This document shows, in pieces, positions 378-57,908 of a DNA stretch of 64,000 bases. Every line of letters starts with the position of its first letter. Position 1 is the stretch's first letter. This stretch comes from Naganishia liquefaciens (taxonomy: Eukaryota; Basidiomycota; Tremellomycetes; Filobasidiales; Filobasidiaceae): contig BLZA01000005.1 of the NCBI GenBank assembly GCA_013423385.1, forward strand, positions 1 to 64,000, read 5' to 3'. The translations under genes were made by a program, and so were the position numbers. The notes under the pieces are model-generated. The model ran no database searches and was not told the origin of the DNA. It saw only the letters and a list, made by a program, of their open reading frames with translations.

Positions 378-395
378 GCGAAAATTGGGAGAGCC

Positions 396-13612: not shown

Positions 13613-13694
13613 AATTCGTCTCCCCTAAAAATGAAGGAGTTGCGGACAGGCCAACCTTTGACCTAAGCAGAAGAAAGGCGTCTGAGAGATAAAG

Positions 13695-30069: not shown

Positions 30070-32562
30070 CTAAGCCGATTTTGGACTCCGCACGAGCATT
30101 CTCCGCATCGCACCTATCAGGCTCGTTGCGCCCCGTCCAAGACCACTCTTGACTGCCAGAAATACCCGCTGCCGAGATGGGATTTGCGCAAGGAACCATG
30201 CACGCCAGGCCGATCCAGAGAAGTAGCTTCTTATGCGTTCCGAAAGGATCGTCGCTGGCGGCCGGACGGTCTTGATTGGCGTTGTCAAGACTGGTGGTGG
30301 CGCATCGACCGAGTAAGGCAGTATCCAATCCCGTATCGACGCTTCGTTGCCTGCACCATGCCTCCGGAACCGCGCAGAAACAGCAAGCCCGATTCGCAGC
30401 CACGACGATTCCAGCCATCGAAGTGGGAGCACATCGGACTTCTGGAAGAGCGATGTCGTCGCAATCGAAAGGACTGAAGGCTGTAACGACGACGTGTGGC
30501 GATAGTGTGCGGCGAGGCGTCGCGCGAGGAGGACATCAGTGGCGAGTCGGTCGCCGATGACGAGTAGCCGTGGATTCGCCAACGGTGTGCGAGACAACGT
30601 TGGTGGGTCCGCTGAGGGTTGTGGCGGCGGCGATGCCGCCTGAGGAGCTTTGCGTGTCGCGCGTCTACCCAACAATGTCTCCCGTCCGTCCCCTTCGTCT
30701 TTCATCGCCAACTCATTCACCTTGACCGGCCCCTCGACGACTTCCCATCCTTCGGCGAGCTCCCCTACGCGAGGTACCCGGCCGACAGCGTGTATCGGTG
30801 CGCGACCAGCAAAGTAGGCGATGATATCGGCGGCGCAGCCGGGTTTTGGTTGAGCATGGAGAAGCACGGGGACACCGAGGGCTCGCGAGACGGATTCTGC
30901 CTAACAATCGCGAAGAGGAAAGGATGAGTTTGGCGTTGGGATAGGGGTCGGGCGTCAGCGATATAATGACGGCCGGCACAGCGTGGCAAGAGCCAACCAA
31001 AAATCCGTCGCAGTGATCATACGGAAAGCGCACAGATGGCCGCAGGAGCCAGTTTGAAATCACGCGATTTCCCAGGCGAATGGTCAATAGCATATGAATG
31101 AGGGGTTGGGCAGTACGTTGCAAGTTGGATGCAACGTTGTTCGAGCAACAAGCAAAGAGCCGAGACCGAGATTGTGCACCGTTGGGGACAAAGCCGCGCA
31201 TAAACAGAATGGCAGAAGGAAGAGAAGAATAACCCGAAACAATGGCCCGTCAGCGCTGCTCTTTTCGCGTCGTTTAGCACCGAGAACATACCGCGATCCC
31301 GCCAACATCTTTCCTCGTTCCCGCTGAATTTGACACCACCAGCACGTTCGCGGCGCCAAACGCCTCCTTCATCTCGGCCCATCCTTTCTACGGGCGGTTC
31401 CTCGGGCTTAGCCAGTGAGAGAGATGAAAAGGGGCAGGGGAGCAACGTACGGCGATGGATGGGTGGAGGGTGTCTTTGTGCGGCCATGTCTGTGAGAGCG
31501 GGGCGTCAGCAATGCATCATACAGTGAGTCATGTGCCGCCGCAGGCGCGCCGTGGATCCATATCGGATGAGATCGTGATCAGACTGGTCCCCATGTCGGC
31601 GAGCAGCGTTGATCTTTTCATTTCGCTCCGGAAACGATTTCTCTCCGAGGTGGCTCCCGTTCACGGCCCAGCAGAGCATGTCACGGGAACAATCTCGGCG
31701 AATCCTTGCTTGCGGTTATAGTAGTCTCGCGTACGCCGATATTGGATGTCGTCCTCGACAGCCCAGCGGAATCCTTGTCTGCGGCGCCTCCTATCCTCGC
31801 TGGCGCTCGCGAGATATACTCTTCCGCGCCCTACGACGCGGTCGGGTTCCCTTGCGCGCCGCCCGGCTCTTTCGCTTCGCTACGGGATTTTGCGCTTGAC
31901 ATTCCACCATATCAGAGGAGTCCTCACACGTCATCGGGTGTACAGGTAGGGATTTGCCTGCGGCACCTCTTATCCCCGCTCCGCTCCACATGACGGGAAT
32001 GCCCTCTCTCTTTTTCGTTTCCGGGGTATTCGCGGCCGTTCTGCGACGGTATCGGAATCTTCTCGCCTGCCGCGCCTTTTACTCTCACGCGCGCCGGAAG
32101 TGCGTGGGGGATTCTCATGCCTGTGCACCTCCTTTCTCGCTTGCACTCGAGGAGACGGGTATTTTCGCTGGCGCTCGACAAGACACAGTCTGGGCCGTTC
32201 TATATGGTGCTCGAAGGGTGCTTGCCCATGAGGCTGTTACTCTCGCTTCGCTCGAGGGGACTCTTCGCGGTCCAACGACGGCTTCGTAAAATCCTCGCCT
32301 GCGGCGCCTCCTATCGTCGCTTCGCCTGCCGCTCCACGACTCACCAAACAATTATCCTTGTCCACCACAACCCCTTCCCACCCCTCGCTCCTCGCCCTCT
32401 TCCAATCCACCCACGAGATACCTGTCCCTCCCAGGTCAGCCTCCACTCTCCTCTCCACGGACCCTTGCACTCACTCGGAACGACGAGATCCGGCTTGAGA
32501 CGCGTAGGCACGACGAGCGCGCCGAGGTAAATGAGCACATTCGGAAGGCGGAGACGAGGCAT
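30070..32562 (-). CDS. GEP4: Mitochondrial phosphatidylglycerophosphatase, Gep4 family
   Basis: Gep4 dephosphorylates phosphatidylglycerophosphate for cardiolipin synthesis in the mitochondrial matrix. Motifs of this HAD family appear across exons: MPRLRLPNVLIYLGAL at the start (32562), the nucleophile motif VVVDKDNCL, TWPHKDTLHPSIA, NVLVVSNSAGTRKD, and LLVIGDRLATDVLLA with the acidic Mg2+ site. The first intron is about 54 nt. The second (31490-32344) is 855 nt and word-rich. The intron after 31293 is about 390 nt. The C-terminal exon is long and includes a Pro-rich insert (about residues 190-215). It is divergently transcribed from the beta-helix gene with 286 bp between starts. Confidence 0.85.
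31490..32344 (-). other. Word-rich giant intron of GEP4 (855 nt)
   Basis: It runs from donor GTGAGTCGTGG to acceptor CTCACAG and joins DKDNCL to TWPHKD in frame. On the sense strand it repeats degenerate forms of CGAGCGAAGCGAGA, GGCGCCGCAGGCGAGGAT and GCCGTCGTTGGACCGC, with spacing of roughly 30-60 nt. The words decay toward the acceptor. The same vocabulary fills introns at 33215-34894, 54474-55803 and 56591-57647. Confidence 0.85.
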
Positions 32563-32848
32563 GGCGTGGCGTTGCGTAGCGTGGCGAGTCGAGGCTGTCG
32601 GTGGCGAATGCTTTCCCGCCGAACAAGCCTGGCTTCCGAATAAGAAGCGGCGACCCCACCTTCTTCCTGATGGAAACCCGCCGGAAACGCGACCGCGCCG
32701 TGGGATCTGCTTCCGCGCGCGTGTCTCACTCTGCGTCGCAGCGGGGAATCTCCATGCTCGTTATCGCTCTCGTACTCAGCCCACTCGGTCAGCGCGTTGC
32801 AGCAAACAACACACAGACACACACACACACACACCTCACCCCGTCCCG
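32563..32848. promoter_or_regulatory. Divergent intergenic region with (AC)n microsatellite
   Basis: These 286 bp must hold the promoters of GEP4 (left) and the beta-helix gene (right). An (AC)n run lies at about 32812-32834, close to the right-hand start codon. Individual sites were not resolved. Confidence 0.6.
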
Positions 32849-35800
32849 ATGCGTCTCGCCTTCGTGCTCATCTTCCCGCTCGTGCGCGCGCTCGAGATCC
32901 TTGGGACGCAAGAGACGGCCGACTGTGTGCCCTCGGGCAAGGCAACGGAACGGATCATCAATGAGCGGTTTCGCGCCGGTGAGTTGGCGGGTGCCCGTGG
33001 CTTTTGCGGCGAATCAGCGCTGATGGGAGATTCTGGATGGAATAGGAGGACAAGGGACGGTTGTAAAGCTGTGTGCGGGGAGTGTGCATAGGATGCAGGA
33101 GCCCGTGGTGATGACGGCCAAGGGACAGGTGTTGGAGACCGAGGGTGGTGGGGGGGAAGGGTGGGGGAGGGCGTTGTTGGTGGTCGAGGGGGAGGAACAG
33201 AGTATGGCGGTCAAGTGAGTGCCGAGCGCCGAGCGTCGAGCGTCGAGCGCCGAGCGGAGCGAGGATACCCTCGAGCGACCGAAGGGAGCGAGAATCCCTC
33301 TCTCGTCGAGCGGAGCGAGAATCCCTCTCTCGTCGAGCGGAGCGAGAATCCCTCTCTCGTCGAGCGGAGCGAGAAACCCTCTCTCGTCGAGCGGAGCGAG
33401 AAACCCTCTCTCGTCGAGCGGAGCGAGAAACCCTCTCTCGTCGAGCGGAGCGAGAAACCCTCTCTCGTCGAGCGGAGCGAGAAACCCTCTCTCGTCGAGC
33501 GGAGCGAGAATCCCTCTCTCGTCGAGCGGAGCGAGAATCCCTCTCTCGTCGAGCGGAGCGAGAATCCCTCTCTCGTCGAGCGGAGCGAGAATCCCTCTCT
33601 CGTCGAGCGGAGCGAGAATCCCTCTCTCGTCGAGCGGAGCGAGAACACCTCTTGTCGAGCGGAGCAAGAGGTCCGGCGTCGCATACAACACTCTTCGGGG
33701 CCGTCGTAGGACGGCCGAGTCGTTCTCGAGCGAGGCAAACATACCTTTGGCCGAACGGAAGGCGCGACCATTTTCGCGAGAGAAGGAAAATTACAACTCT
33801 CGTCGAACGAAGCGAGAATGAAAAGTGCCGCAGGCGACCCAACAATCTTTTCGGAGATCCGTCCGTCTGCATGCCGGCGAGAACTCGGCGCTGTAGACGA
33901 AAAGTCTTCGAACGCATCGCAGAACAATCGAGGGGAAGCGTCTCGTCGAGTGTAATGAGTTCCGTCAACTGAAGCCAAAACAAGGCCGTTGCGGGCCAGA
34001 CAAAAATGAAAACGTGTCGGAGGCGCGATTTATCTTCCCGAACAGGGGAGCGTCGTGGTTGGGCGTGCCGGAACCATCATAGCAAGGAAACGGCTCGGTT
34101 TCTAGTCGGAAGCCCAGGTTTATCGCTGCGAGTACCGCACCTCATAGAGGCGACGTCGCCATCAGGGATAGACCACGTCGCCAGGGCGAAAGATACTCGA
34201 TGGCTCCTCCGGCCACCTGGCGTGTAACTCACGCAGCAAGTCTGCAGCGCATTGTCAAGCTCGAGATCGGTGACTCGTCAAGCCAAGCAAGCGGCAGAGC
34301 GCAAGAGCAGCCATTCTTTCGAGGCTGTCAGCAGTCGGCCAAGGGCCCCATCTGGTGCAGGAAAATGGCGCTCTCCTTGGATTCGGCGATTTGAGCAAGA
34401 GCACCAAACGGAGAATTCTACGTGGCCGCTGCAAGGCGGCAAGAACGTTTAATTCCAAGGCCAGCGAGAATCAGGCTTTTCCGAATGGCAACGAGCACGA
34501 TACGCGCTGCAACCATAAACTCCCATGGCAAGATCTCGGCGGGTTGAGAAACAGTGCTCAGTCGAGAGTCGGCTTTTCCTCATGCGCAGCAGAAAGCCGT
34601 AAATTAGGGTTTTTCGACGCTGTCGCAGGATAGTCAAGCAAAGGAATTTAGGTTCAGCGAGAAGAAGTGTCCCCAGAACGCACCAGGATGGCATCCGTTG
34701 AAAGCCATACTTTTTCAAGCTCATACAGGACAGACGTGTTCAAGGACGGATTTGCGCTCGGATCTCTCCAGGGCACTGAACCTCGCAGCGAGAGGCAGAA
34801 CTGTCCAAAAAATAGCGTTCCACCCACGAAAGCAATCGACGCGTTGCCGACATTCCGAAACAGAGGACACCGCTGACCCTATACCTTCCCGCAGAGCCGA
34901 CTGCACTGCATGCACCAACATCTCCATTCGTTCTCTCGTCATCGACGGCAACCGCCCTCTTCTCTTACGCGTCCCCAAAGGCGAGGCGCTTGTGGAAATG
35001 GGAAACGCCGATGGGCAAGAGATTCGGGATTGTCGGTTAATCGAGCCGCGAGGGTGGAGTGCTTTGCACTTTAGGGAAGGGGATTGGAAGAGCTGCAGTG
35101 GTGGAGTGATACGGAATAACGTAATCGTGAGTCGCCTTCAATCGGTATTGATTCGCGCTCACGCGATGCAGGGACCGGCAGGAGAAGAGTGGGACGAGGA
35201 ATACGACGGATCCGAGGACCCGGAGCCACGGTTCGGGAATCCGCGAGCCGATGGGATCAGTCTGGCCTGCAAGGATAGTCTTGTCGAGGGCAATGTGAGT
35301 CGCTTGCACAGCTGGCAAGGCGGGGCTAACGTCGCGCAGACCGTCTTTGACACGACGGACGGGGCGATCGTGCTATTCGGCAGTGCCGGGAGCGAAGTCA
35401 GGGAGAACAAGGTGTACGCACGGACGAGAATGGTCATGGGAGGTAGGTAGAGCGTGCCGTTCAGGATCCTGTCTGACGTCGCCGCAGCAATCAACCTCGT
35501 CGACTACGACCCCTGGGAGGGCAACTATACTGATGTCCGCGTCCACCACAACACTATCGCCGGCCTCGGCTCGTACATCAAGGGCGCCATCAACATCGGC
35601 CAGGCCTGTTGGACGGATAATACCGAAATCATGGTTCACGGCGGGTCCGTAACGCACAACACCATCGAAGGCGAGGGAATCGGGTATGGGATCACGGTCG
35701 CGGGAGCGCGCGGAGTAACCGTGTTGGATAACAAGAGCACGGCGCGGTATAGCGGCGTCATGGGCCGCGAATGTCCTGTGGCCCCACCAAATGCCGAGCC

Positions 35801-36778
35801 GGTGGCGTTCCTGATTAATCGGGGAAGCTCGGAGGGTGTATTTCAGGACGAGTTTGTCAACGGCGAGGTACAGCATGGTGAGTTGCCCTAGGATCTGCCA
35901 TGAGTTGGGCTGACCTGTCACAGTGATTTGCATCGAGCCCGCGACCGAGGACGAGCAGCCGTACAAGCCATGGCGACTGCGCGACTCGCCGCTGGCGATA
36001 GCGACACTTGCAGAGGAGGCGCAGTCTGAGAAGACGGGTGGATACATGGACGAAGCAATGGTGCGTGTCACCGTGCGACGACTCGGCGGGCGCTGATGGA
36101 TCTTGCAGCATGCTGCCCTCGCCGATAGCCTCGTAGCGTACCAGATGGATGTCCTGGCAGCGTTAAAGGGTGTCAGAGAAAAGCTTAAGGGATCCGTCGA
36201 ACCAGCCGGCAAGAAGCGAACCTCGGGCAAGAGCTCTGTTTCGTGGGTCCCGTCTGTGGCTGAGCGACATACCGAGCTGACGAACTCGACGATTCCTCAG
36301 GACCGCGCTGGCAGACTTGTTTGCTAGATTGGCCAACCTCGAGTCGGAAAAGAAGCAGGTCAGACAGTCGATCGATGCAGCGAAACGAGGAATGTCCGCA
36401 TACAATTCACGTCTCGGAAACTACGCGGTGAGTGCCGTTCGCAACTCCCGGTGTCTTCACTGACGTCCGGCGCAGAAGGATCGCACGAAATCCTTCCGCC
36501 GTCTATTCATTGCGGTTCGGACGTACAGTACGGCAACCCTGCCCAAGGGTGCTCTCTCCCTCATGCCGCGCCATGTAACGCAACACAACTGGACACCGGC
36601 TTTGCTGTTTCTTCTGCTGGAATTGGTTGGGTTGGGCATATGGCGCTGGTCGCGACGCGGGAGCACGATTCAGAGCGGGGAGAACGGACACGCGCGCACT
36701 AGTAGTCTTGGGTTCAGTACCAGCAAGCCGGCCACCGTTGGGCTGTTTGGACGCAGGAAAGCGGTCAGAATGGTATGA
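32849..36778 (+). CDS. Secreted-type beta-helix protein with C-terminal membrane anchor
   Basis: It starts at 32849 with a signal-like MRLAFVLIFPLVRALE. Exon 2 ends at 33214; a 1,680-nt intron (33215-34894) joins MAVK to ADCTACTNISIRSL. From there the protein shows beta-helix rungs typical of pectate-lyase-like folds (NISIRSLVIDGN, GVIRNNVI, VRENKVYARTRM, VHHNTIAGLGSYI, VTHNTIEGEG, VTVLDNKS), separated by several short introns. The last exons add a helical, coiled-coil-like stretch (about 36.11-36.43 kb) and one membrane segment (TPALLFLLLELVGLGIW), then a Ser/Gly-rich tail. No lyase active site was identified. A separate gene for the last 0.7 kb is possible but the splice frames connect. Confidence 0.75.
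33215..34894 (+). other. Word-rich giant intron of the beta-helix gene (1.68 kb)
   Basis: The donor is GTGAGTGCC and the acceptor is TTCCCGCAG. The first 500 nt are almost pure repeats: GAGCGCC/GAGCGTC words, CGACCGAAGGGAGCGAG, then a 27-bp tandem array. GGCCGTCGTAGGACGGCC and degenerate words follow to about 33.95 kb. Beyond that the sequence looks ordinary. Confidence 0.85.
33308..33670 (+). repeat. 27-bp minisatellite inside the intron
   Basis: Twelve full units of 27 bp plus two degenerate ones, each a GAGCGGAGCGAGA core followed by CCCTCTCTCGTC. Five adjacent units carry AAACCC where the others carry AATCCC, so a block of units was amplified together. The unit lacks stop codons in all six frames. 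Confidence 0.97.
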
Positions 36779-37177
36779 TGCCCCACGCGGCTATGAATCA
36801 TAATCGTATGGGTTACGCATCGTCTATGCTTCGGTGCGGAGATGCTGTGGGACGGACCGCTTCGCCGTGAGCAACGGGCCAGACATTTCTATAGTCGTGG
36901 TGCATAAGGAGCAATCGCTCTCATCAAGATTACACGGTCATGTGCGGTGGCACATGAGCGAAGCAGACTCGCGATCACGAGATATGCAGTGCAAACCGCC
37001 TATTGGCGCGTGGATCAGTCAAACGGGCGCTCATGGTACAGGTGTCCAACTACGTTGTTGCATAACCCCACGAGGCACGTGCTACGGGCCGCAAGAGACG
37101 CAAGATTCGTGTTCCTTTTACAGCGCGTCCATTCTTGGTTTTTCTTTTTCGAATTGCCATAAGGGGTGGCGAGCATA
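36779..37177. other. Intergenic stretch without a recognisable gene
   Basis: Only short unsupported frames are present. Confidence 0.45.
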
Positions 37178-37445
37178 TGGCTGATAAAAACATGACTAAC
37201 GAGACATCAGGAGCAAAAACATGACGAAATTCTCCGGGAAAGAGCAAACGGTTCACTACAGCGTATCCCGGGTGCTCCACCTTTCTCGTCAACAAAGCCT
37301 GACCAACGATCTGGCTGATAAAAACATGACTAACGAGACATCAGGAGCAAAAACATGACGAAATTCTCCGGGAAAGAGCAAACGGTTCACTACAGCGTAT
37401 CCCGGGTGCTCCACCTTTCTCGTCAACAAAGCCTGACCAACGATC
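37178..37445 (+). repeat. Perfect tandem duplication, 134-bp unit x2
   Basis: The units 37178-37311 and 37312-37445 appear identical. Each starts TGGCTGATAAAAACATGAC. There is no coding content. Perfect identity implies a very recent duplication or an assembly artefact. Confidence 0.95.
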
Positions 37446-37850
37446 CAAGATTCAAGTCAGTAGTCGAAAGACACTTAGGACATCACTCCTGAGCCTAAGT
37501 TTATCCAGTAATGAGCGGAAAATCTCACGTCACCGTAGACGCCTTAACGAATTTTGTGGAGACTGCGAGGACAGCATTCTCTGTTTCCAGTCATTCTGGC
37601 TGTCATTTGCCGCGCGTGCAAGATGTTCTGCGGTGTCCGAAAGATGCATCATAATATGTGTTTATCAGTCTGGCTCCTCTGGAATTCGAGAAGGTCTAGC
37701 GCCACGTCTGTGAGTCTTGATGCTGTATTGATGGGCGACGCCCGGAGCGGGCGCTCTGAGCAATCGTCTGTAAATAACCGATGGCCCTTTTTTTTTCCTT
37801 CTCGTTATGCCCTATTCTGAATATCGCGACTTCCGCCCCTGGCGATCCAG
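37446..37850. other. Intergenic stretch without a recognisable gene
   Basis: I see nothing supportable here; a T9 run lies near 37788-37797. Confidence 0.4.
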
Positions 37851-38723
37851 GTTCCTGTGTACCGAAGAGGATTTGATGGAGGTTGGCTGCAAGAGCAGAT
37901 GCAATCCGACGGCTCACCACTGAGAACGGTGAGCAAACCTTTGGCAAAGAGCTGCTCGACGACTCTATTACGATCGAGAAAGAACCATACGGTGTCAGCA
38001 ACCGCTAGCGTCAGCTCGCTGAGCATCCTCGACATGTACACAAGATCGATAGCCCGCTGTGAAGAGGCAGCGTCAACAGTGAAGTTTCACTGCCTTTTCC
38101 CCAGAAAGTCGTAGTTGAGCTGGAGTATCCGGAAGAGCTCTTGAAGCCCTCGTGCCTTCGAAAGACGCTGGAAGATCTATGCAGAGCAATCTCACTTGTA
38201 CGGAACCCTCTTCGCTTTTGAAGCTCCCAGCCGCTCGCCACAGGACTTTAGGTACAGCTGTGGTGATAACAACTTCTACACACAACTCAGATATATTTTG
38301 GGAAGCAGAGTTTGTGACTCGCTCTAATCGCGAAAACCGCATCGGATTTTGCCGGCCTTCAAGGACGCGATCCTCCAAAGGGCAGTCCGAGATAAGATTT
38401 CGGATACAAGATGTTGGAATGAAAAGACCACTATCGCCCCAGCCGTGCCGCGGAGAAGTCAACATCGCAAAACCGCACACTATTTTGCAGATTTCGGCTC
38501 ACTGAAGTCTCCTGAATGCTTAGAAAGGTCCACGGACGGGCTCATATCTTTCTCGTATCGCCCCGGAAATGCTGATTTCGCGAACTACCCACGCATGATT
38601 TTGTGGTTCCGTCACGACTCCACAATATCCCCGTATCAAGACTTCGCCTTTTTCAGCGTGAAACAAAGAGGAGGGCTACCGGAATCTACCTTCCATTGGC
38701 CATCAGGATCCAAGCAGGGATGA
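37851..38723 (+). pseudogene. Broken member of the uncharacterised family (copy 2)
   Basis: The N-terminal part reads VYRRGFDGGWLQE, then VKFHCLF. The core then continues in another frame (FAFEAPSRSPQDF, FYTQLRYILGSRVCDSL), meets an in-frame TAA near 38312, and resumes with LPAFKDAILQRAVRDKISD. The C-terminal domain (FSYRPGNADF, ILWFRHDS, FHWPSG) matches the other copies. At least one frame change near 38200 and one stop make an intact protein unlikely, although an unrecognised intron could explain part of this. It is a host gene family, with no transposon features. Confidence 0.65.
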
Positions 38724-39842
38724 TATAGCAACACCCCTGATGAGGTACCTTGGACTCACTGCAGCTGTCGTGGGCTATCGTATAATGAAGTCTCTGGTGG
38801 AATGTAGCCGGCGTAAGCAAACAAGAGGAAAGGCTTTTCAGCGTGACTCGGATCGTTGAATGTAAAGCAAGCTGTTGACGTAATACAGGAAAGACAATGG
38901 ACCCATATGCTGACTCACGGGCGAATGCAGGCGTGGAGATGCCTAGTCGCTAGGAACCTTTAGGCTATAGTATTCGCTCAATATGAAGGACTAATAGGAA
39001 GGTTCCTTCGGGGGATCATTCGGATACAAATTTGCTGTCATACTTTCAGAATCGATCGCTCGCTCATGCGATAGCCTCCAAAGGCCTCAGTGATTGGGTT
39101 GGTTGGGCAGTAAAAGCCGGGATGGGCAATTTCATGCCACGAATCGCATGTGCGCGATCTTGAAATATATCGACTGAATCAATACAGATACCCTGCAAGA
39201 TTCCAAGGTGAAAACGTGCTTGTCACCAGACAGTCTCCTTTGCTGGAAGCGACACGTGAGGTGTATCTAAAGTATGAATTTGCCCTCTTTTCTTATCGCA
39301 TCCTTTCAGCTCTTCGAGAGGAAGATGCATGAGTGCCTGTGCGAATGATGGTACAGTCTATTTAAGGCAACTTTCAAAGAGACGATGTTTTTCGAAAGAA
39401 TATGGATTTTGCTGGATGACCGATACATACCGTCAACCAGAACGACTTTGGATATTGACCCTTTTCCATGATGAACTCCAGTATTCACACTTCGAGTGAG
39501 TCTCCGCAGGTGTTGCTTATAATAGGCTGATACGCAAGCCACCTAGCTATGCGCCCAAGCAGCGATGACACTTTTCAGATTTCAAAGAGGATTGTTCGAT
39601 CCACGTGTTCTGGAACCCGGGCGTCTGAGTGTGACACGCGAGAAAGACCGGGATGGGCAGGTGCCGAATTATCTTCTGTCACTTCCGAGTTGGCGCCTTT
39701 GAAACCTTTGGCGACCACTGGGAGTTGTGAGTGTTCATTGCCAATGCAATTGCGCAAAGAAGTTGCTCAGAGCAATCCCTTGGGCATCCGATACATGTTT
39801 ACCGAACATCATCATTCATACATAATGTCTTCAATTTTGACA
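38724..39842. other. Intergenic stretch between family copies
   Basis: Short frames only, including 39150-39332. They might be further remnants of the family, but I could not align them. Confidence 0.35.
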
Positions 39843-40225
39843 GTTTCCGTATATCGACGAGGGTTTGGAAAAGGATGGCTGCAAGAACCTTTGCCAGCCG
39901 GAATTTCAGGGTCTGGGATCAAGAAGAGGAGTAGGCGTAATCGAAGTTTTGGGCCGACTGGATCCCAGCCGAGCCAAATTGAGCATAGAGCACCCGGGGA
40001 GGGATCGCGACAAATATCGACGCCCTTCGCCAATGCTGCCAAAAGCGTGGCCGATGAATGTTGCTTTGCTTCGGTTCGAGGATCGGCTTCACTGGACTAT
40101 CCGATCTCTCAGTTCCCAAACATGCAAAACAACAGTCGTAAGTCCACGTTTTCAAAAAGGCGCGATGATCAACGAATGGAGGAGTCTCTCCCTCTCAATC
40201 GCTTGCATGCCAAGTACAAGATAGA
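39843..40225 (+). pseudogene. N-terminal fragment of the family (copy 3)
   Basis: VSVYRRGFGKGWLQE here matches VPVYRRGFDGGWLQE at 37851. The following sequence does not continue into the core domain. It may be the displaced 5' part of the gene at 40308, or a partial duplicate. Confidence 0.45.
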
Positions 40226-40307
40226 GTGATTTGCTCATACCAATCTTGCTGCATTGCTCTATGTTTTGAGCCTCCTTCAGGACTATCCTCACTCCCCACT
40301 GAGACCA

Positions 40308-41302: not shown

Positions 41303-41544
41303 GACTGTAAACGCTTTCATGAATGTGTATATTATTTTCCCCAAGATGAACCCCATCAGCCCCATGACAGTATACCCCTGTGTTGGGCTGGCTATGTCAG
41401 GGTCAGGGTCGCATTCTCCTGGGGCCAGTTCACCAGCCATCAGCATTGGAGGCACCTCGTCGGAAGCAACGCGACCCGCCTGAGACAGCCAGCGCCAGGC
41501 AGAATCCAATCTCGCATTTCCGTATCAGTACGAGAGAGATCCCT

Positions 41545-45248: not shown

Positions 45249-45567
45249 GGCTGAAGGATTGGTGGTATAGGCCGATCGCCCGTGAGAAATGGACCGAAGG
45301 AGCGAGGATGTAGAGAGCGTGCGTGACGACAGGATGGATCGCTGCGAGGAGGACTGCAAGCAGGAAAGGCGCTGAGCAGAGATGAGCCGCATGAGCAGAG
45401 ATGAGCATGATGATCATGAAAGACCTCGCCTGGCGTCATTTGCCTTCATGTGCCGCCGATCGCGCAAAGGCTCGGCTTGCTCCGGCTTATTATTGCTCCA
45501 TTACCGTTTCAAGGCGGCCTCTTTACAGCGTGTATGCAAGGGTATACAGGATACAGTGGGTTCGGTT
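45249..45567. other. Region between TatD and the DUF3431 gene
   Basis: It holds the TatD upstream region and the 3' flank of the DUF3431 gene, both on the minus strand. No further gene was recognised. Confidence 0.45.
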
Positions 45568-47992: not shown

Positions 47993-48581
47993 GGCCAGTG
48001 CCCAGCTGATTGACGATGGGATTTCTCATGGGGATGAGACGTCTATCGTCCATGAGGTCGTCAAGCCCAACTTCGCAGTCGCAGCATTGGAATTTGGACT
48101 TCATATTCGCTTCCGCGTCGCAGTTATTTTCAGTGTTTCATGTGCAGAATTTTGCCGCCGGAAGGATGTCACTGACACGTTGCTGACGTTAAGAACACGT
48201 GGACGCATGCCTGGGGGGCTTGTTTAGCAATCATGATCGCCGGGCGAAATTCGCCGATAAGCCGCCGCCGCCAGCGCAGACGACCGTTGTGATCTTTTAT
48301 TGCAATGTTGTTCTGCTTCGCTCTGCATTCCGAAGGCGCTTCATAGTGCGACTGTCAGCCTCACCGTGGGATAACAATCGTTTGTCGTCAACGCAACTTA
48401 TCGCGATCTCAGCAGACAAAAAGCCACATCATTATGTTTTACGGAGAAGAGCGAACTCTTGCAATGAAGCAGAAGCCTGGTCAAGTCACATGACATGCTT
48501 GCGGTCCACTATTACATAGGATTACTGCAGTTTCACCTTACAAGGGAATGGTGTTGCTAGGCAAACTGCTGCAAAGCCCGT
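47993..48581. other. Region between the DUF3431 and CK1 genes
   Basis: No gene was recognised. A plus-strand frame at 48199-48519 has no known motif. Confidence 0.45.
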
Positions 48582-50563
48582 TTACACGGTAACCAATTGC
48601 TGTAGCCGTCCTCGTGGCCTGGAATGATCGCAATCAATCGACCTTGCCAGTTCCGGAGTCTTGAGCTGTTGCAGGATCGCGCGCAGCATGGCGTAGTCTG
48701 GCCGGTCTGCAAAGTCGAGCGCTGCTATATGTTGAAAGTAGGTAGCTATTTCTCGGGCTATAGTATCATATAATCAGTCAGTGGCAAAGAGGCCGATGAC
48801 AGAATAGAATCAAGTACTGACGTAAACGCTCCTGACCTACGCCACGCTTGAAAAAAGTCTTCTTCTCCTCGCGAATATGACTATTCAGGCCAAGCGACTC
48901 CGCAGTCCACCGATGTCCCGATTTAGCAAACGATTCTTCGAATTTGTTGGCGTGCTTCGACCAAGGAAGACTCCCTGAATCCAAGCATTCCCAGCTGAAT
49001 GATCAAATGCCGATGCATTGCTGGAAAACAAAGTATGCGTACCGTGATACAGAACTGCAACGAGCTATGTGAATTTGGGGTAACCCTTTCTTGGGTATTT
49101 CAGCTTACATAACAGCATATAACCCAAGCTTTCCAAGTCGTCTCGGCGAGTGCCCTCTGAAAACGAGACAGTTCGGCTTTAGACTGGGGACTTCCGGAAA
49201 AACTTTCCACATACGACATCGATAACTCATAAACTACGGAAGAGGTGAGGTCAAATTTTCTTTTCCATATCTCTGGCAAAAGCGCTTACCGCTTGCGTGC
49301 CAACGATACTTTGCGCTCCTTTTATGCGAGGCATATGCTGGCCGTCCGCTGTCCGGTATGATTGTGCCATACCAAAGCTGGGACGCAAGCTCAGCTCTTT
49401 CATGAGTGCAGAAGCATTGAGAGTCGAGAGGGGCTCACTCGACAAGGTAAAGTATCTCTTTTTTGGATCCTCGACCTATGCAGAAATTCTCGGGCTGCAT
49501 GCGCGAAAGTGTCAATTCAGTCGAGAGCCCCACAGTCACAAAGGCGTTGGCGCAGAATCACCTACTTTCTGGAGACGGCGCAAAATGAATCAGTCAACTA
49601 TCGAAGCTGCGAGATCCAAAAGGCAATAACCTACAATGTCTCTGTGAACCAACCCCTTTCCATGCATGTGTTCCAGCCTTTTTAGGGCGTGGCATCCGAG
49701 CCAGGCAATCGTGTCAACTTCCCATCCAACAGATTCCGCTGCCGGTCGTAAAGCCGCGACTGAGTGCCTACGCTTTAGGCTGGGACCTTGATATGCGGCG
49801 GGCTTCACCTTCTTCAGCAAATGTCGACGGAACAACGTTCCAAGATCCTCGCCGAGGCGCTCCATAACAAGAGCATGATGTCGCTCTAGCGTCTGGGTAG
49901 CGTTCGCCTGCAATGTCTCGTGAAGATACGGCTGGGGTTGTTGCAGCTGGCGATGCAGAAATTCCTGACTCAAACCGGAAAAGGGGGACACACGTCCTTG
50001 TAGATCAAAGCTCGAATGTAGAGGTGTTGATAGAGGCGAGCGCTTGTAAGCACGCTGAGCAAATGCAATGTGTGCGTTTGGCGACGACTGGACTGGTATA
50101 AAGCAACGTTGTTTGACCGGGATCGTAGTGCTAGAAAATAGGTAGAATTGAGCTGATGTCATGAGCGAATGATTGGACAGCACAAGTGTTAGCTATGTAC
50201 GCTGAACCCAACAGATGGTTTTGCGTACGTATGCCCTCAGCTCCTTGAAGTGCCTTCAGAACTTTGGCTTCATTCACGAGACATGAGCGTTCCTTGTCGG
50301 CTCTGTATGAATCTGAAGGCTCAGACCTTGTTTCGGATATGACATCACGGGTCGGGAGGCCCATACCTTTCCAATTTGATTGCCACATACAGAGCAGATT
50401 CCTCTTGTGCATCGGAATGAATTCTCTGGCTGTTGCGACTGTATATTGAATCGCCCGAATCGGACCCATCGTATTCTTGACGAACTCCGGCGTACACAGA
50501 GCCAAATCCTCCTCTACCTAGTTGCCAATCAAGGCTTTTTACCACCGAGTTTTCAGCTGACAC
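48582..50563 (-). CDS. CK1-type protein kinase
   Basis: Spliced exons give the Gly loop LGRGGFGSVYAGV, the VAIK lysine (YVAIKLE), the helix-C Glu (VNEAKVLKAL), the hinge ALVMERLGEDLGTLF, the catalytic loop HRDI + K + PENFCIG, the Mg2+ loop LVDFGMAQSY, the CK1-like QHMPRIKGAQSIVGTQ, RRDDLESLGYMLL, GSLPWSK and a C-terminal FADRPDYAMLRAIL. DFG appears only after splicing intron 49378-49438, and the loop Lys lies on its own 3-nt exon. An insert of about 80 residues precedes the hinge. Several introns near 48.7-49.2 kb were not fully resolved. The CK1 family is clear; the subfamily is not. Confidence 0.8.
49566..49568 (-). other. Predicted 3-nt micro-exon (Lys of the HRDxK loop)
   Basis: The sense strand reads GACATT, then GTAGGT...CTCCAG (49634-49569, 66 nt), then AAA, then GTAGGT...ATGCAG (49565-49495, 71 nt), then CCCGAGAATTTC. 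Both introns have normal length and splice sites. Skipping AAA would delete the catalytic-loop lysine conserved in almost all Ser/Thr kinases. Confidence 0.7.
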
Positions 50564-52016
50564 GAACTATGATAGGTTTTCCAGGATCTGACCTACTTTG
50601 AGCGGAAGTCTGTCGAGTTAAGAGGTAAAGCTTGCAGGGTCAATGAGTTTATCGTTTTAGATCGTGCTTACCTTTAACCCTGAATGACATGCGGTGAGTT
50701 TGCGATCTGTACTATAACCGAGCTGAGCTGAAGGCAAAGAAGGCGCTCACAAACAGAGGCTATCCACGATCTCTTATGATTACTCGCGATTGAACGTCTC
50801 GCTGGCGTTTTGTATCAACCGAGGCGTCCCTCAGTGGTGGAATGTAGACAGCTTTGTCGACGCTGTGATTCGAGGTCCGGGGAAGAGAAGGGAAGATGAG
50901 GGGAGATAAATGGTCAACTGCACTTCTTGCCGGGGTCTGAGTGGAGACCGAGGGAATACAGAAAATTGGAAAGCGCTTGAGCACGGAAGGCAAGGCTTCC
51001 GGGTAGAGCTCCTGCTGCTAGCCTTAAGAACCGGAGCAGACACCAGCCAATTCGGAGCTCCTCCTTTCTTGTCGGCTCCTTTTTTTCGGCATGCTCAGGA
51101 GAGGGTCTCTGGCGATCAAACTAGCTTTGCAATCATTGCTGTGCTACATGTTCACAATGATCATAGACTTCTGCCTGACCCGAAACCCGAACACTCTCTC
51201 TACCTTTTCGGGAGACTGTTGTCCTAGCGCGGGCTTCTGAGATTCTGAATGTCGAAAATACAGAGCAATCAGCCGAGGAAGACAAAGATTGACTTTCGGA
51301 CAGCATCGAGGCGTATCTTTAGGCTTCATGTAGGATTCAAAATGGGGGGTTCAATGAAGATTGATAAATATCCAGCTAACTGGAGCGGAAGAATGGATTT
51401 GCAGAATACTCAGATGACAGGAATACTCATACTGCAGGATCACATGTCATCGCTGTTCATTGCTGCAGGCTGCGCCACCTGCTCAGTAACATGGATTCGG
51501 CGTGAATCTCGATGTACCGCTGAAGCCAACACAAGGATACTACCTGTGATGTAGTTAGCACTGTGGGAAAGACAGAAATGATCGTCATGTTCAATATCAC
51601 ATGTGGATTCACAAGACTCTATCCCGCATTCTACAATCTACCGGAGTCCGACGTGCTTCGGCAGGTCACTACTCGTGTTCTCCCGAGTGTCCGCCCAGTG
51701 CCCTGATACTGGGCTCCTCGAAGCGTTTGACATATTTCTGCTCCTTTGGGATATGGCAGGACATCCTTTGGGACCTCCCATTGGAGGGTTGAGGGGCCCA
51801 GGGGTCTGCCATCGAGCGAGACAACCTTGCTGATATGCTTGATTCGTTGCCTTCACTATACCAGACACTTTGTGTGCTCTCGAGCTTAGCATCTGAGCTT
51901 GATCCCCCTTCGCCTTCCCCTATCTTCGAGGAAGTGTTCGACTTGACGCGTTCCGTACTTCCCCTCATTCCCAATCATTCAAGCCCACTCCCCATTCCGA
52001 ATTCGACCCCGTAGTT
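50564..52016. other. 1.45-kb stretch without a convincing gene
   Basis: Short frames on both strands (50760-51043 minus, 51249-51554 plus, 51603-51833 plus) have no recognised motif. The right end holds the upstream region of the next gene. Confidence 0.4.
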
Positions 52017-52889
52017 ATGGCGCCCATGGTGAATCCTGCTCCAGAAATCCTGACGTGAGCCTCTTGATCTTCTTTCTTGAGCCTCGATTCTAACGAAGCG
52101 ATCTGTAGACGTTCGGCCGCGACCAATTTCACCCTGGATGACGCCAGCTCTAGCATCTACTATATCGATTTTCCCGCCGCTACGATCTCAAACGTGTGTG
52201 TCGCAGAAGGTACATGTGCATACGGCAATACGCTACACCAGGCTTCACTTCCGAGCGCGAGCGCCGCCTTCCAGTTTGCTGGCTCGGCGTTTTACATTTT
52301 TGGCCTCCTGTCACCAACGTCTGGACCGTTTACTGTAACAGTGGATGGTGTGACTTATGGTTCCTTGACTGGATTCTGTGAGACAACCATCGCACAGGCA
52401 TTGCTGTTCTACAAAGAAAACCTTGATCCTACGAGTACGCACCAAGTCGTCTTGCGTAATGCGGCATCGAGCTTGTTATCCCTGGACTACGTGATAGCAA
52501 CCTCGGGAGGCTCCGCGCTCGGCCCAGTGCGAAATCCGCCTTCTTCCCCGCAAGACGGGACATGGGGGACGCCAGTTGGCAATGTCGGAAACGCTGGAGG
52601 GGTTATTGGTCCACCATTCGCTGGAGGTACCAATGTTCCACCGGTCAACACCAGTACACCTCCGACGGATGCTTTTGGAGTACCTATTGCGACCCCAACT
52701 GAAGCGAAGAACGATAGTAATGGCGATCAGATAGGAGCCATCATCGGAGCAGTCGCCGGCGTGATACTCTTTCTGGTGATTGCCTGGATGCTTTTCCGTT
52801 CCCACAAGAAAAAAAGGGCTGATCAGACCTTGTCTGGCTCCGCTTTCCCTGCTCCAATCGGTCAACGAACGCCCGTTCCGCCACAATAA
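52017..52889 (+). CDS. Single-pass surface protein with carbohydrate-binding-like ectodomain
   Basis: The first exon starts at 52017 (MAPMVNPAPEIL). An intron of about 55 nt (52056-52109) joins it to TRSAATNFTLDD. The ectodomain (about residues 14-150) has the jelly-roll-like pattern common in basidiomycete surface proteins (FQFAGSAFYIFG, FTVTVDGVTYGS). A Pro/Gly/Thr-rich stalk, one membrane helix (IGAIIGAVAGVILFLVIAW) and a basic stop-transfer RSHKKKR follow. No cleavable signal peptide was seen, so the start may lie upstream. The ligand is unknown. Confidence 0.7.
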
Positions 52890-52910
52890 TATCAATCATG
52901 CCTATGACGA

Positions 52911-53177
52911 TTGCATTTGCCTCAGCTGCTCTTGCTTTTCTGGTATCGCTACTACATGTACCGGAAACGGGGAGGCAAAGGTAACTTCTGGGAGGCGCTA
53001 TTTGGTGAGCGCAGAAAGAAACAGGTCAAGGAGGCTGAGCAGGAGGCTGCCGAGAAATGGCGGAACTGGCCAATGCTGAGATACGTCCCGACTTATTCAA
53101 CCAAGGATCTGACCGAGGAGAATGACAGGAGGGAGAAAGAAGAGGCAGACCGAAAGAAGAAATCAGCGTCGAGATAG
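52911..53177 (+). CDS. Small hypothetical basic protein, start unresolved
   Basis: A highly charged C-terminal sequence (RRKKQVKEAEQEAAEKW, then a Lys/Glu-rich end) follows a hydrophobic stretch. The frame begins without an ATG. A spliced start near 52899, where ATG opens a hydrophobic MPMTIAFASAALAFLVSLL, would need a frame change. It could be a small membrane protein. Confidence is low. Confidence 0.4.
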   Translation: MHLPQLLLLFWYRYYMYRKRGGKGNFWEALFGERRKKQVKEAEQEAAEKWRNWPMLRYVPTYSTKDLTEENDRREKEEADRKKKSASR

Positions 53178-53413
53178 CATTGTACAAACTGTTCTGCGTA
53201 GAAAAGGATTGGGACCATGGCTGTAAATCGTTCGTCGGGGAATCTATATTCGATTCGCGATATTCGTAAAATCAAGGCGCTGGTTTCCGGACGCGTTAAG
53301 GAAAGAAAAGTTTGGATACAATACAACTGACTCTGGATATCGAGTCCCGCCAAACTTATGGAATCCCCACATCTACCTTTCGTCCAGATTTATACTGACC
53401 ACCGCCAGAACCT
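53178..53413. other. Convergent intergenic region
   Basis: It is short and AT-richer than its surroundings. No gene is visible. Confidence 0.45.
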
Positions 53414-56044
53414 CTACGCGCCATCTAAAAAGATGGCATTCAGAATCGCAGCTAGCCGGATACCACCCTTAGCAAGCATCATCTCGACGACCTTGTCGTC
53501 GCCAATCTTGCCCAAATACTCTGGTGTATCGAGCTCGACTACAGGGTTACGGGGATCCCAGTGTGGGGGCCAGGCGTAGGCGCAATTGATGGGGTGAATC
53601 TGCTTTGCCCAGGTGTAAGGACATGCGGGGAAATCTTGATCCTCATCGAGCGGGGCTTGTCCGGAGGCGAGCGCGGCAAGCTTGATCGTTTGAGAGTCGA
53701 AGCCTTCTGTAGCTGGGTCGGCGATGTCCACCAGGTACTCGGCAAATGCGGCGATAGGAGCCGGAAGACTACCCTTGGCCCATTGCAAGGCGTTTGTCAT
53801 TCTGCCAGGCGGGTTGTGCGGATAGGGATCACCGGCGGCAGGGCATTCGAGCCATTCGTGAGAAGAGGCATTCCGCCACCATCCCCAGATCCCCTCGCTG
53901 ACGATGAAGCGGACGTAGGGGTCAAAGATGGCGCCGACGAGGGCCGATTCGAGTTGCCGGCTGTTTCAAGGTCAGCGATGTCAGAAAGAGAGACCACCGA
54001 CGTACTTGTGCGTCGGACGAGTGTAGTTCCTTAATTCCCGGATGTTCTTGGTGATGATTCCGGAATCCCATACCGAGTGCAGGCTACGCTGGTCAGGCAC
54101 AATCGCCATTGACACAGCGCTGCTCACCTCCGTCGTCGGCCTTCAAAATTGAAAATCGCTGGCAGGATGTCAGTAGAGTCTCAGAGATCGGTACTAGGCA
54201 ACTCACCATCATTGCCTCCCCTCATTCGGCCCGTCAAGTGCAAAGGCTGGTGCAAATCTCCGACAAAGTGTACCAGAAATCGAAGCGCAATATCCTTCTG
54301 GGTGACACTACAAACCATGAGTCTCATGATCCGCGTCGGCCAGCCGACCTACGTCTTGTGCGGATCCATCAAGATCTTGGTGGTATTGCCGATGGCGGTA
54401 ATCACGTTGACTTTATCATTGGTCCACCCGTGCTCGCCAAACATGCAGTGTTCGCCGGGGACATCGTCGATGGCTGCAAGCCGAAGGTGATCAGTAAGTG
54501 AAGTGTCTGGGTAAGCGAATCAATCAAGAGCGATGAAGGAAACAACTGCTAGAATGCCTCGCAGAGTCAAGGCCAATTGTGAGCAGATCAGGGCGACGCC
54601 CCCTATTGTCATCTTCCGCAACACCGGGTGATAGCTGCTGCTTCAACGATGCGACATTGCGATACACCGGAACGCAAACTTTCTTGTTCAACGATCGTAC
54701 AGTATCGTTCTTTGCACTGCCGCCGTTGACCATGTTTCCCCGAGACCGCCCATATCTGATTTCGTCCTTATTCACCGAGCCGTGTGATTATTTGCGTCGA
54801 GGGCCTCGTCGCGAGGCATGATGTCCTGCCAAGAGCCTTTTGCAGTGCTTTACTGTTCCGAAACAGGCGAAAGGATCGGAACGAAAAGAGTCGTCTGGGC
54901 ATTCTTCGATGTCCTTCCAAACTTCAAGACGCCTCTGCGTTGCAAACGGTTGCCTGCACCATCCGACAGCTAGAGGGCGCCAAGGCGAGCCCAAAGGCAT
55001 CTGTGTGGGTGCATTCTCCGTGACGCCTAAAAAGCGCTCCGGGAGCAGGTCGAAGGCGCCGATACTTCATGCATTGACGGCTGACAGCCGGAGCCTTGCA
55101 ACAACTGAACGACACGGACCCGTTATCTGATGGCCCTGAGCACTGTGCATCTTTCTCGGCAGCCCCACCGGAAATGTCAAATGCGCTGGTGAGAGTCTCC
55201 TGGTCTTGCTGAGACCTTGAAATCTCGAGTGCGAACCTCCCGGCTCCGCTCATGGTATTCTCGCTCATTGAACGAAGGCTGGGGTTGTTTGGTCGGTGAT
55301 CGCGGGCTCGTCAAGCGACGTCCTCGATATGAGGCTCCTTGCATCCCTTCGTACTCTTCGCCTGCGGTTGTGCTCGAGCGCCTTTGCTTGAGCGCGGCAA
55401 GACTCGCTGGTCTCGAGGGCCTTGGCTGCCGCGCGACCAACGCTGGTATCTCGGCGTGCTACTTTGGCCTCGAGGCTTCCAGGCCCGATCCGCCGATATT
55501 CTGGCCTCTTCTGGCATCAGACTGAGGATCTCGTGCCGTACGTCGCGCTCGAGGACTCTTTTCCGCGCAGCGGAAAACTTCGCTTTGCAGGAGAAAATCC
55601 TCGCTTTGCTCGATGAGACGGGACTCTCGCTCCGTTCGAGGTAGTCTCGCTCCCTTTGGTCGCTCGAGGGTATTCTCGGCCGTCTTACGACGGCCTCGGG
55701 GAATCCTTGCCTGCGGCACTAACATGCTCGCTTCGCTCGAGGCAGTCTCACTCCCTTCGGTCGCTCGATCGCTCGGGCTCGCTCCGCTCGCCGGCGCACT
55801 CACGATTCACATAATGCATCGGCCCCGTCTCCCTATACCTCCCTCTCACGCCATCCGCCCACGCCGCCACCGACGCCAACCTGCACTGCGCCTCTTTCGG
55901 CAAAATCCCACACAGCCGCTCCCTGACGTCCGGATGAAGATGAACTTGAGCAATGGTCGCTACGATTTCGTGTCCCGCTGCGCCCCACGCCCAGACCTGG
56001 GGCAGGATCGCCAGCGGCAAGATTGCTGCGAGTGAGAGACGCAT
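53414..56044 (-). CDS. Secreted S1/P1-type zinc nuclease
   Basis: S1/P1 nucleases cut single-stranded DNA and RNA outside the cell or in acidic compartments. A signal peptide (MRLSLAAILPLAILPQVWA) precedes the mature N-terminal Trp that ligates zinc (WGAAGHEIVATIAQ). Further zinc-site motifs follow across exons: ASVAAWADGVR, GPMHYVN joined to PIDDVPGEHC, VITAIGNTTKIL, LRFLVHFVGDLHQPLHL, GGND and SLHSVWDSGI. The last exon (53414-about 53958) closes the fold. The intron after HYVN (54474-55803) is 1,330 nt and word-rich; the others are short. It is divergently oriented to the GFA gene. Confidence 0.9.
54474..55803 (-). other. Word-rich giant intron of the S1/P1 gene (1.33 kb)
   Basis: The donor is GTGAGTGCGCC and the acceptor is GGCTTGCAG; the join gives HYVNPIDDVP in frame. 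The first 300 nt on the sense strand contain CGAGCGAAGCGAG, CGACCGAAGGGAG, GTGCCGCAGGCAAGGAT and GGCCGTCGTAAGACGGCC in near-perfect form. Weaker forms extend to about 55.3 kb. The remaining 0.8 kb looks like unique sequence with no recognised gene. Confidence 0.88.
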
Positions 56045-56332
56045 GATGACTTTGTCGAATGGCCTCCCTCTTTACTTTCCTGCTTGCCATTCCGCTGCTA
56101 TACCCTCTTCAGCCCCAAGCAACGCAAGCCCAGCCGCCCTCCCGCCCGATTTGCCTCCGCGCGCCGGCCATCTCCGTGCGAGTTCATTCGCCGAAGCAGA
56201 GGGGCATTCCCCGCGGGAGCGGGAGAGGACAATACAGGTATTTTTAAGCCAACGACCTGCTCAGCCTGCCATTGCATCAGCTCATCCCTCCTTCCATCAG
56301 TCCATCAACCCTTCCATCGAGCTTCATCCATC
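56045..56332. promoter_or_regulatory. Divergent intergenic region
   Basis: 288 bp separate the start codons of the S1/P1 and GFA genes and must hold both promoters. Individual sites were not resolved. Confidence 0.55.
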
Positions 56333-57908
56333 ATGGTTCAAAAGGGACAATGCCTGTGTGGCGCCATCAAGCTCACCATCCACGAGGACCAGGACAAGCA
56401 GATCGCTTGTCATTGTGAGTTGGGCGGGAACGGGGGAATACGGTTCGAGGCTGATCTGAGCCTATAGGCACCGACTGTCAGCGTCTCGCGGGAGGAGCGT
56501 ATACGACTAATGTGGTTGTAGATGATGACAAGAGTGAGATTGAGGGAGAGACAAAGTCGTACAGGAGCAAGGCCGCGAGCGGGAAGGAGGGTGAGTGCGA
56601 GCGACGGAAGGGAGCGAGAGTATCTGGCTTTTCGAGCGAAGCGAGGAGACTCGTCTCATCGAGCGCCAGCGAGATTACTAGCGCCGCAGGCACGAGGCCG
56701 TCGTAGCAAGGGCCGAGAATACTCTCGAGTGCAGCGAGGAGCCCTCCGAGCGACCGAAGGGAGCGAGCATTTCAGTGCCGCAGGCAAGAACTCTCGAGTG
56801 CGCCTTAGGGCGCGCGAGAATCCCTGTCTCATCGAGCGAAGCGAGAGTACTGGTCTCCTCGAGCGAAGCGAGAATGACAGCGCCGCAGGCAAGGATTCCC
56901 CCGAGGCCGTCGTAGGACGGCCGAGAGTCGTTGACTACCGTACGGTACAAGAACGAAACACGCCGCAGCCATTCCATCTCGACGCTCATCAAAAGCCAAA
57001 AACGATTCGTCGCCGCGGGATGCCAATGAGAAAGCCCCGGGCACATCGAGGATCAGCGCGCAGACGGGCGGGGAGCTGCGACTATGTCCTTCTCGCGATC
57101 TACGACTCTCGGTTTGCGGAAATCGAGGCACGACGGCGCAAGACGTCCGACGCTTCAGGCTGCTTGGACGAGCTACCCGTCACAATCTGCCCTGAGCATC
57201 TTTGCAGTGGCATGCTAGGAGGCTTGACAAATTGCGGTGGGCTTCTGTTGGATGAGCACTTTACCTATCCTCGACGCGCGCCACGTTGGAGAATCCTTCA
57301 ACTCTCACAAAAGGCAGATTGGACGTGCGGGCGGCGACAAGCGAACGCTTCTTGGCGGTAGCCGCGAGGCCGTCTTCAGTGCTCGTCCTCGCAAGGTTCT
57401 TGCCCGAATCACCACCAAGCCTGCCAGCTCTAGTCTATAGAGGCACAGATCAGCTGTCTTGTGCGAGGCGACAAGGCGCAGGGCCACCGCCAGGAGGGGG
57501 TGATTGCTCCTCGTCCGGAATGAGATGTCGATTAATGGACACGACCTTGCGCGCAACGGAGCCCGCCAGATTTCCAGGATGACACGTTGCGACCGCTTCG
57601 CCCTCAACTCGTCTCGTCCACTCCATGCTGACGCGCCTCCTCTGCAGTCGAACACGTCTTCTGCCCCAACTGCGGATCCACCATTGCCAACCGATCGCCC
57701 TCGTACGCCGGCAAGACCTGCTTCAGTACGTTCTTCGCCTCTTCCCTCTCCGTCACTGCTGACCGCGCGCTCCCCCTCGCGCAGAGACGGCCCTCTTTCC
57801 GGCGTTCAAGTCGATCCCGTTCGCGGCCGAGATCTTTGTCAAGGACCGGTTCGACGCGCTCCAGCCCATCGAGGGTGCCGGTCAGGAGCAGGCAATGCCT
57901 TCGTCTTA
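56333..57908 (+). CDS. GFA/Mss4-like (glutathione-dependent formaldehyde-activating family) enzyme
   Basis: This is a small zinc-binding beta-tent protein; in bacteria, Gfa speeds formation of S-hydroxymethylglutathione, while most fungal members are uncharacterised. Zinc ligands are in CLCG, ACHCTDC and, in a later exon, FCPNCGST. Splicing: intron 56416-56466 gives CHCTDCQRL; intron 56591-57647 (1,057 nt, word-rich) joins SGKE to VEHVFCPNC; intron 57717-57784 joins GKTCF to KTALFP. The protein of about 140 residues ends at 57908, normal for the family. Confidence 0.85.
56591..57647 (+). other. Word-rich giant intron of the GFA gene (1.06 kb)
   Basis: It starts GTGAGTGCGAGCGACGG and ends CTCTGCAG. 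The first 350 nt carry repeated GAGCGAAGCGAGA, CGACCGAAGGGAGCGAG, GCGCCGCAGGCAAGGAT and GGCCGTCGTAGGACGGCC, in the transcribed orientation. From about 56.95 kb to the acceptor the words are no longer visible and the sequence has no recognised gene. Confidence 0.88.

Follow-up and report, generated by a model that had tools for sequence, protein, structure and literature searches.

Intron gain and growth pose an old open question, and four giant introns in one stretch of the genome of the deep-sea yeast Naganishia liquefaciens N6 raise it afresh: what fills them, and how did it get there? The stretch, hereafter the window, is the first 64,000 nucleotides (nt) of contig BLZA01000005.1 (assembly GCA_013423385.1). 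The answer to the first part is that dozens of unrelated genes of this yeast possess an oversized intron whose donor end is packed with shared sequence words, almost always oriented in sense to transcription; we call such a word-packed stretch an array. The answer to the second part is less direct and has to be weighed against several alternatives.

The four introns of the window are real, as the earlier note on this DNA had maintained: all splice in frame in silico at the coordinates given here, leaving open frames, in three of the four hosts a Pfam domain crosses the splice junction, and one spliced product equals a deposited protein. Intron 1 (31490–32344, minus strand, 855 nt) interrupts a PGP-phosphatase-domain gene, with PF09419 spanning the junction, and its degenerate array-like signal (minus strand) takes up approximately the first 676 nt counted from the donor. 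At this junction the product shows no gap against proteins of Naganishia vaughanmartiniae and Schizophyllum amplum; used as a query, it returned no N6 gene model. Intron 2 (33215–34894, plus strand, 1680 nt) lies in what we take to be a secreted right-handed beta-helix-like gene, and its splice is supported by the open frame only, because the host protein gave no match in a Pfam search. Its array (33215–33871, plus strand) contains a homogeneous 27-bp tandem; a 372-amino-acid (aa) minus-strand open frame at 32958–34076 overlaps this array antisense and is probably open only because the tandem unit has no stops in that frame. Intron 3 (54474–55803, minus strand, 1330 nt), with its array at 55538–55803 (minus strand), belongs to an S1/P1 nuclease gene and splices in frame with PF02265 spanning the junction. 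Intron 4 (56591–57647, plus strand, 1057 nt; array 56591–56963, plus strand) belongs to a GFA-domain gene (PF04828), whose spliced product is 100% identical over 135 aa to NliqN6_0179 of N. liquefaciens N6 and aligns without gaps to the protein of N. albida. The genome paper (PMC7679087) gives totals of 6,883 for genes and 38,748 for introns, used RNA-seq for gene structure, and makes no mention of repeats in introns.

What the four introns share is a vocabulary, although not quite the one that the earlier note had described, in which the same words recur in all four, always in sense, each as an interrupted palindrome. The short GCCGCAGGC is the sole word present in all four, with variants filling in elsewhere, while the longer CGAGCGAAGCGAGA, CGACCGAAGGGAGCGAG, GGCCGTCGTAGGACGGCC and GCCGCAGGCAAGGAT are each exact in two of the four, GGCCGTCGTAGGACGGCC recurring in a third intron with one mismatch. 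Nearly all words do run in sense; the exceptions in the window are a GCCGCAGGC at 31538, within intron 1, and, within intron 3, a short TCGAGCG. The palindromic character is strong only for the words with a GTAG loop, the stems of the others measuring 2–3 bp. GGCCGTCGTAGGACGGCC, the C module, has a 7-bp stem and such a GTAG loop; it lies at 33699–33716 (plus strand), with an exact copy at 56905–56922 (plus strand) and a one-mismatch copy at 55678–55695 (minus strand). Perfect 7-bp hairpins number 54 against 5.1 in shuffles, and hairpins of 5 and 6 bp are rarer than in shuffles. The sense strand of the arrays has AG in excess and is depleted in GT and TG. The modules are complex in sequence, yet tandemly arranged, with spacings of 27 and 25 bp, and they follow a preferred order in which A or B leads to D, D to C or E, and these back to A, with a Z-like leader near some donors and CGAG-type simple repeats adjoining donors. 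Spacing is similarly regular: A to D is 22 nt in 40 of 56 cases, B to D 26 nt in 12 of 16, D to C 21–22 nt in 21 of 28, D to E 21–22 nt in 11 of 14, and C or E to A 28–29 nt in 17 of 39.

These words are not confined to the window. In the genome-wide search that the earlier note had proposed, with the same pattern read backwards as the control, CGAGCGAAGCGAGA has 140 matches against 1, GGCCGTCGTAGGACGGCC 38 against 0, the lengthened CGAGCGACCGAAGGGAGCGAG 29 against 0, CGCCGCAGGCAAGGATTC 30 against 0 and AGTGCCGCAGGCA 4 against 1, two of these five patterns being lengthened forms of the words first described. The family is present across the genome. We then took a census of the 38 loci with an exact word on contigs C1–C13 (10.2 of 19.4 Mb; C7 has no listed match, and contigs after C13 fall outside it) and read them all, taking donors outside the window from the sequence. 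Sense arrays beside a plausible donor account for 35; one further array has a weak donor, one is inverted at a 3′ splice site, and one locus is a lone word. In 31 of the first 33 loci, no more than 28 nt separate a donor-like hexamer from the start of recognizable array sequence, the remaining two being a C10 locus with a weak GTAGCG donor and locus L063, antisense against an acceptor. In four of the five later loci the first exact word stands 8–56 nt past the donor (in one of these, L058, the array lies behind an extremely G-rich stretch), and the fifth, L059, is the lone word. The outcome that would have refuted the earlier note, with matches as frequent between genes as in introns and on either strand, did not occur among these 38 loci: one is a lone word and one is antisense to its gene. 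GTGAGT lies at most 30 nt from GAGCGAAGCGA in 19 cases over all contigs, the backwards control giving 2; some of the 19 were read individually. Such word-based counts miss degenerate and variant arrays; a Rho-like array on C7, for instance, was found only through its ortholog.

The host genes are unrelated and carry differing domains, although most of their names are presumptive: homeodomain, Rpn1, HIBCH, NDUFA12, NDUFA9, Utp11, GluRS, cytochrome b5 and other names are those we assume where Pfam is silent. The arrays sit early in their genes. In the window the array donor is 218–366 nt (genomic distance) downstream of the start codon, and over 32 loci elsewhere the distal-most in-frame ATG candidate lies 21–569 nt upstream in 27, with none in 5. 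Loci are enriched at contig ends, 20 of the 38 lying within 100 kb (8.8 expected) and 11 within 50 kb (4.5 expected), and three pairs of arrays are at most 5 kb apart (0.7 expected). The window's two close pairs are divergent gene pairs with arrays on both sides of a shared upstream region, at 32563–32848 (start codons at 32562, minus, and 32849, plus) and at 56045–56332 (start codons at 56044, minus, and 56333, plus); in the C10 pair the two arrays lie on different strands and face away from each other. Window positions 200–420, close to where contig C2 begins, hold CCCCTAA-type repeats, which we take to be telomere-like, and the window may therefore be subtelomeric.

What the earlier note had overlooked is the placement of the arrays: almost all of them adjoin the donor and thin out inward, behind an exon that is extremely G-skewed. 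We modelled 20 introns with confidence, the four of the window and 16 others, relying on codon score, phase, branch point and protein families that could be recognized; in 5 of the 16 the acceptor was not the single best by score or had close rivals and was chosen by eye, and in C4_20201, C13_1243700 and C2_846600 it was picked since the protein continued sensibly. In these introns, leave-one-out word coverage stands at 0.85 and 0.91 over the two 100-nt bins nearest the donor and drops to 0.06 over the final 100 nt ahead of the acceptor; on the antisense strand it ranges from 0.04 to 0.12 over the first 1.7 kb. Within loci, module mismatches grow with distance from the donor (542 modules; none of 2000 shuffles reaches the observed covariance), and 9 of 13 Z-like matches fall in the first 200 nt. 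A comparison of 33 arrays gave 4819 matches, all plus/plus, which connect 518 of 528 locus pairs, without any block of at least 97% identity longer than 41 nt. Beyond the arrays the sequences are unrelated at an expect value (E) of 0.001, with just seven matches in 4 of 528 pairs, each beginning at most 120 nt and ending at most 231 nt from the array cut. The first 100 nt of the 20 introns are similar in 124 of 190 pairs (in 10 pairs the match begins no more than 10 nt from the first base of either intron), and the last 100 nt in none of 190.

RNA structure was considered as the reason for the modules and rejected, as neither strand folds better than dinucleotide shuffles: over the first 200 nt of the 20 introns the mean z is −0.18 in sense and 0.14 in antisense, and the sense value is below −2 in 2 of 20. 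We likewise rejected looping by exon–exon pairing or by pairing of the intron's 5′ and 3′ parts, since own pairs equal swapped pairs, and transposon ends, for neither terminal inverted repeats (TIRs) nor target-site duplications (TSDs) score better at the 20 introns' own junctions than with swapped partners, which bears out the absence of both that had been noticed in the window. A search of the window with Rfam at the gathering threshold and a tRNA scan gave no match, and one word pattern searched in IMG/VR found nothing.

Are these arrays, then, introners? The definition given in PMC9860276 requires similarity at both intron ends, TSDs or TIRs being common and not obligatory. The arrays resemble the introners of Micromonas, Aureococcus and others described there in that similar sequence recurs near the splice site in spliceosomal introns of many unrelated, non-paralogous genes and needs no open reading frame (ORF); they depart from them in that the donor end alone is shared, and as a modular array. 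Since 5′ ends are shared, 3′ ends are not, and TIRs and TSDs are not in excess, the arrays fail this published definition. Low-complexity families were removed in that survey. The earlier label of an introner-like system is thus apt for a genome-wide family of sense intronic modules without TIRs or TSDs, and inapt in so far as it implies introners as published or RNA folding as the organizing principle. Dothideomycetes introner-like elements are also fungal and intronic, degenerate into ordinary introns (PMC4457414) and have no TSD or TIR (PMC9860276); they are described as near-identical copies (PMC4457414), whereas here blocks of at least 97% identity between loci do not exceed 41 nt and the 3′ parts are unrelated. 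The sister stwintrons of Xylariales, according to PMC12403724, are similarly multiplying fungal intron sequences with a special part at the donor, but they are introns nested within introns, and some of them carry complementary repeats near their termini, while the pairing of 5′ and 3′ parts in our introns matches swapped controls.

Arrays also occur beyond N6. A translated array gave 20 matches among metagenome ORFs at E up to 10, nine of them at E ≤ 0.001; 16 of the 20 ORFs were read, and one or more array-like peptide signatures are present in every one of the 20, though the weak E-values of P0024, P0025 and P0027 mean that their array nature rests on the peptide reading. In several of these ORFs a conserved exon comes first, and the frame continues across the donor into the array. 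P0022 holds the S1/P1 exon of N6, and by eye its version of intron 3 seems to have 4 nt fewer near the donor than window positions 55750–55803, possibly a slippage difference. Five other metagenome exons match N6 at 85–98%, which makes their source one close relative or several. Six orthologous introns can be compared, and in four of them both species have arrays; N6 arrays occupy the same donor in the GluRS-like, Not3-like (degenerate) and Rho-like genes, and P0024 matches an NDUFA12-like N6 locus with an array there too. The array has decayed in N6 in the NDUFA9-like gene, and at the sixth, L056, the N6 intron is about 480 nt long by eye and has no recognizable array. Array content differs between N6 and the relative at shared donors, and the upstream exon is still G-skewed at the five N6 loci matched by these other exons (0.37–0.62). 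On the simplest reading, the arrays predate the species split and have stayed at the donor, where they turn over.

The mark on the flanking exons is local. The skew (G−C)/(G+C) in the 100 nt upstream of the donor averages +0.60 over 20 array loci (range 0.17 to 0.75) and +0.03, with a maximum of 0.33, at 21 ordinary donors (p = 2e-7), this control being 21 introns of the window found with a simple coding-score script and covering sizes of about 41–143 nt only. Farther upstream of the donor, between −200 and −350 nt, the skew at array loci turns slightly negative. After the acceptor it is −0.27 at array introns against −0.09 at ordinary ones (p = 0.006). In the window the G-skewed stretches are, for intron 1, 32345–32444 (minus strand), comprising 83 nt of exon and the end of a short intron, and, for introns 2, 3 and 4, coding exon at 33115–33214 (plus strand), 55804–55903 (minus strand) and 56491–56590 (plus strand). 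Of the third codon positions there, 62% are G, compared with 25% in control ORFs. In yeast expressing deaminases, as described in PMC3628087, C-to-G changes are enriched in clusters and depend on Ung and Rev1; by inference, the mirror-image strand bias here could stem from clustered mutation in single-stranded flanks of a break. Elsewhere in the window, a GGGGAAA-type G-rich tract at 13690–13890, outside the arrays, reaches a GC skew of 0.96, and 22041–22410 has adjoining negative and positive skew segments like those of the array donors, without an array.

While the anatomy of the arrays is solid, the mechanism has to be inferred from it. We favour donor-anchored turnover at the DNA level, ranking it above selection for a splicing function and above a classical introner burst. 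Its broader form, an inherited, donor-anchored family of arrays that decays inward while DNA-level processes renew it, we give about an even chance of being right. On this account, DNA at the donor edge would repeatedly break or be exposed as single strands, and short tracts might be added there, or copied between arrays, by slippage, template switching or ectopic gene conversion. The C-GNA-G mini-hairpins, which would be very stable in single-stranded DNA, may assist this addition; according to PMC4686876, DNA hairpins of this type are extraordinarily stable, GCGAAGC melting at 78 °C. Older modules would mutate into the long featureless 3′ part of the intron, and the sense orientation may be retained because a purine-rich strand is tolerated beside the 5′ splice site. 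Only tentatively, and with clearly less confidence, do we propose the fuller account, in which introns grow from their own 5′ splice site: a persistent fragile donor edge, whose repair adds modules copied between genes, would push older modules inward, where they decay, and leave the exons with a mirror-image G/C bias.

A number of observations weigh against this account. The C-GNA-G cores are 419 against 66 ± 7 in shuffles, an excess inflated because module copies are not independent, and the gradient in array coverage might also reflect differing array lengths. Taken by type, the rise in mismatches reaches significance for B (rho 0.44) and C (0.28) but for none of A, D and E, and no type shows a significant rise over the first 450 nt, so that distal modules carry it. 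The most homogeneous stretch of intron 2 is inside the array rather than at the donor, and the antisense array of L063 (G000:C1:356551–356907), in what is presumably a cytochrome-b5-like gene, lies head-on to the branch point and the acceptor of an intron of 357 nt. Segments of the window with a skew of at least 0.5 in either direction number 22, of which 4 are at array donors. Finally, third-position G has been gained from A and T as well as from C; these losses are not what a simple C-to-G mutational process predicts, clustered C-to-G mutation alone thus misfits, and selection for G-rich exon ends is a possible alternative.

Selection could act on the arrays too. If a purine-rich donor-proximal array were a functional element, selected as a splicing or expression enhancer of early introns (an intronic 5′ splice-site enhancer or intron-mediated enhancement), its sense orientation and donor adjacency, its early position 218–366 nt after the window's start codons and 21–569 nt after ATG candidates in 27 of 32 loci, its recurrence at the same donors in two species, and its AG excess and GT/TG deficit would all be expected. 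The heterogeneity of the host genes speaks against this, as do the decay or absence of the N6 array at two of six orthologous introns, RNA folding no better than in shuffles, and exon–exon and 5′–3′ pairing no better than with swapped partners; on balance we consider selection for such a function rather unlikely. An introner burst, in which an element with its own donor and array entered many ancestral exons and created introns, the copies then diverging and losing 3′ similarity, seems to us slightly less likely again. It would accommodate the unrelated hosts, the concentration of Z-like matches near the donor, the existence of an inverted copy (L063) and, as insertion at a break, the mirror-image skew on both exon flanks; the similarity of 5′ ends in 124 of 190 pairs suits it as well, though only 10 of these start close to both first bases. 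It is at odds, however, with the absence of similarity at all 190 pairs of 3′ ends, of TIRs and TSDs and of long near-identical blocks between loci. Uniform ageing would also not produce B modules with a mean of 0.8 mismatches per 21 nt in the first 200 nt and 2.3 at 600–800 nt, although A and D modules hardly change.

Independent growth of a minisatellite in each intron, with the loci unlinked, would explain local tandem homogeneity such as the 27-bp array of intron 2, as well as the CGAG-type repeats beside donors, but it is contradicted by the same complex modules, order and spacing in unrelated genes, and by words of 18–21 nt at 29–38 places against 0 in controls; we regard it as very improbable. 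The arrays do resemble minisatellites in their tandem units and copy-number turnover, and differ from them in that the units are not private to a locus: the same modules are common to the 33 arrays compared, in a preferred order and anchored at splice donors. Fungal mitochondrial genomes contain GC clusters, double-hairpin elements and palindromic repeats, which are likewise short hairpin modules, rich in GC and able to spread. Unlike these, the arrays are nuclear, and a mitochondrial origin was rejected, the complete match lists holding no B, C or long D word on the mitochondrial contig C28, which carries COX1. Immunoglobulin switch regions are unrelated and serve as an analogy only: they too are intronic, lie past a donor, consist of purine-biased non-template repeats with short palindromes and involve action on single-stranded DNA, but theirs is a programmed recombination, of which none is known here.

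Searches of open-licence PubMed Central articles turned up nothing that by title or abstract describes such arrays and no article that joins 'Naganishia' and 'introner', and CGAGCGAAGCGAG appears in a single one, on an unrelated subject to judge by its title and abstract. A family of this kind would escape surveys that demand similarity at both intron ends. It offers a donor end that alone is shared among unrelated genes, a gradation from introns with an intact array to long introns without one, and a strand-biased mark in coding sequence, and donor-anchored intron growth is directly testable with it in a culturable yeast with public RNA-seq. If introns here do grow from their own 5′ splice site, intron size in this yeast would be set by a polarized, transcript-oriented DNA process and not by transposition.

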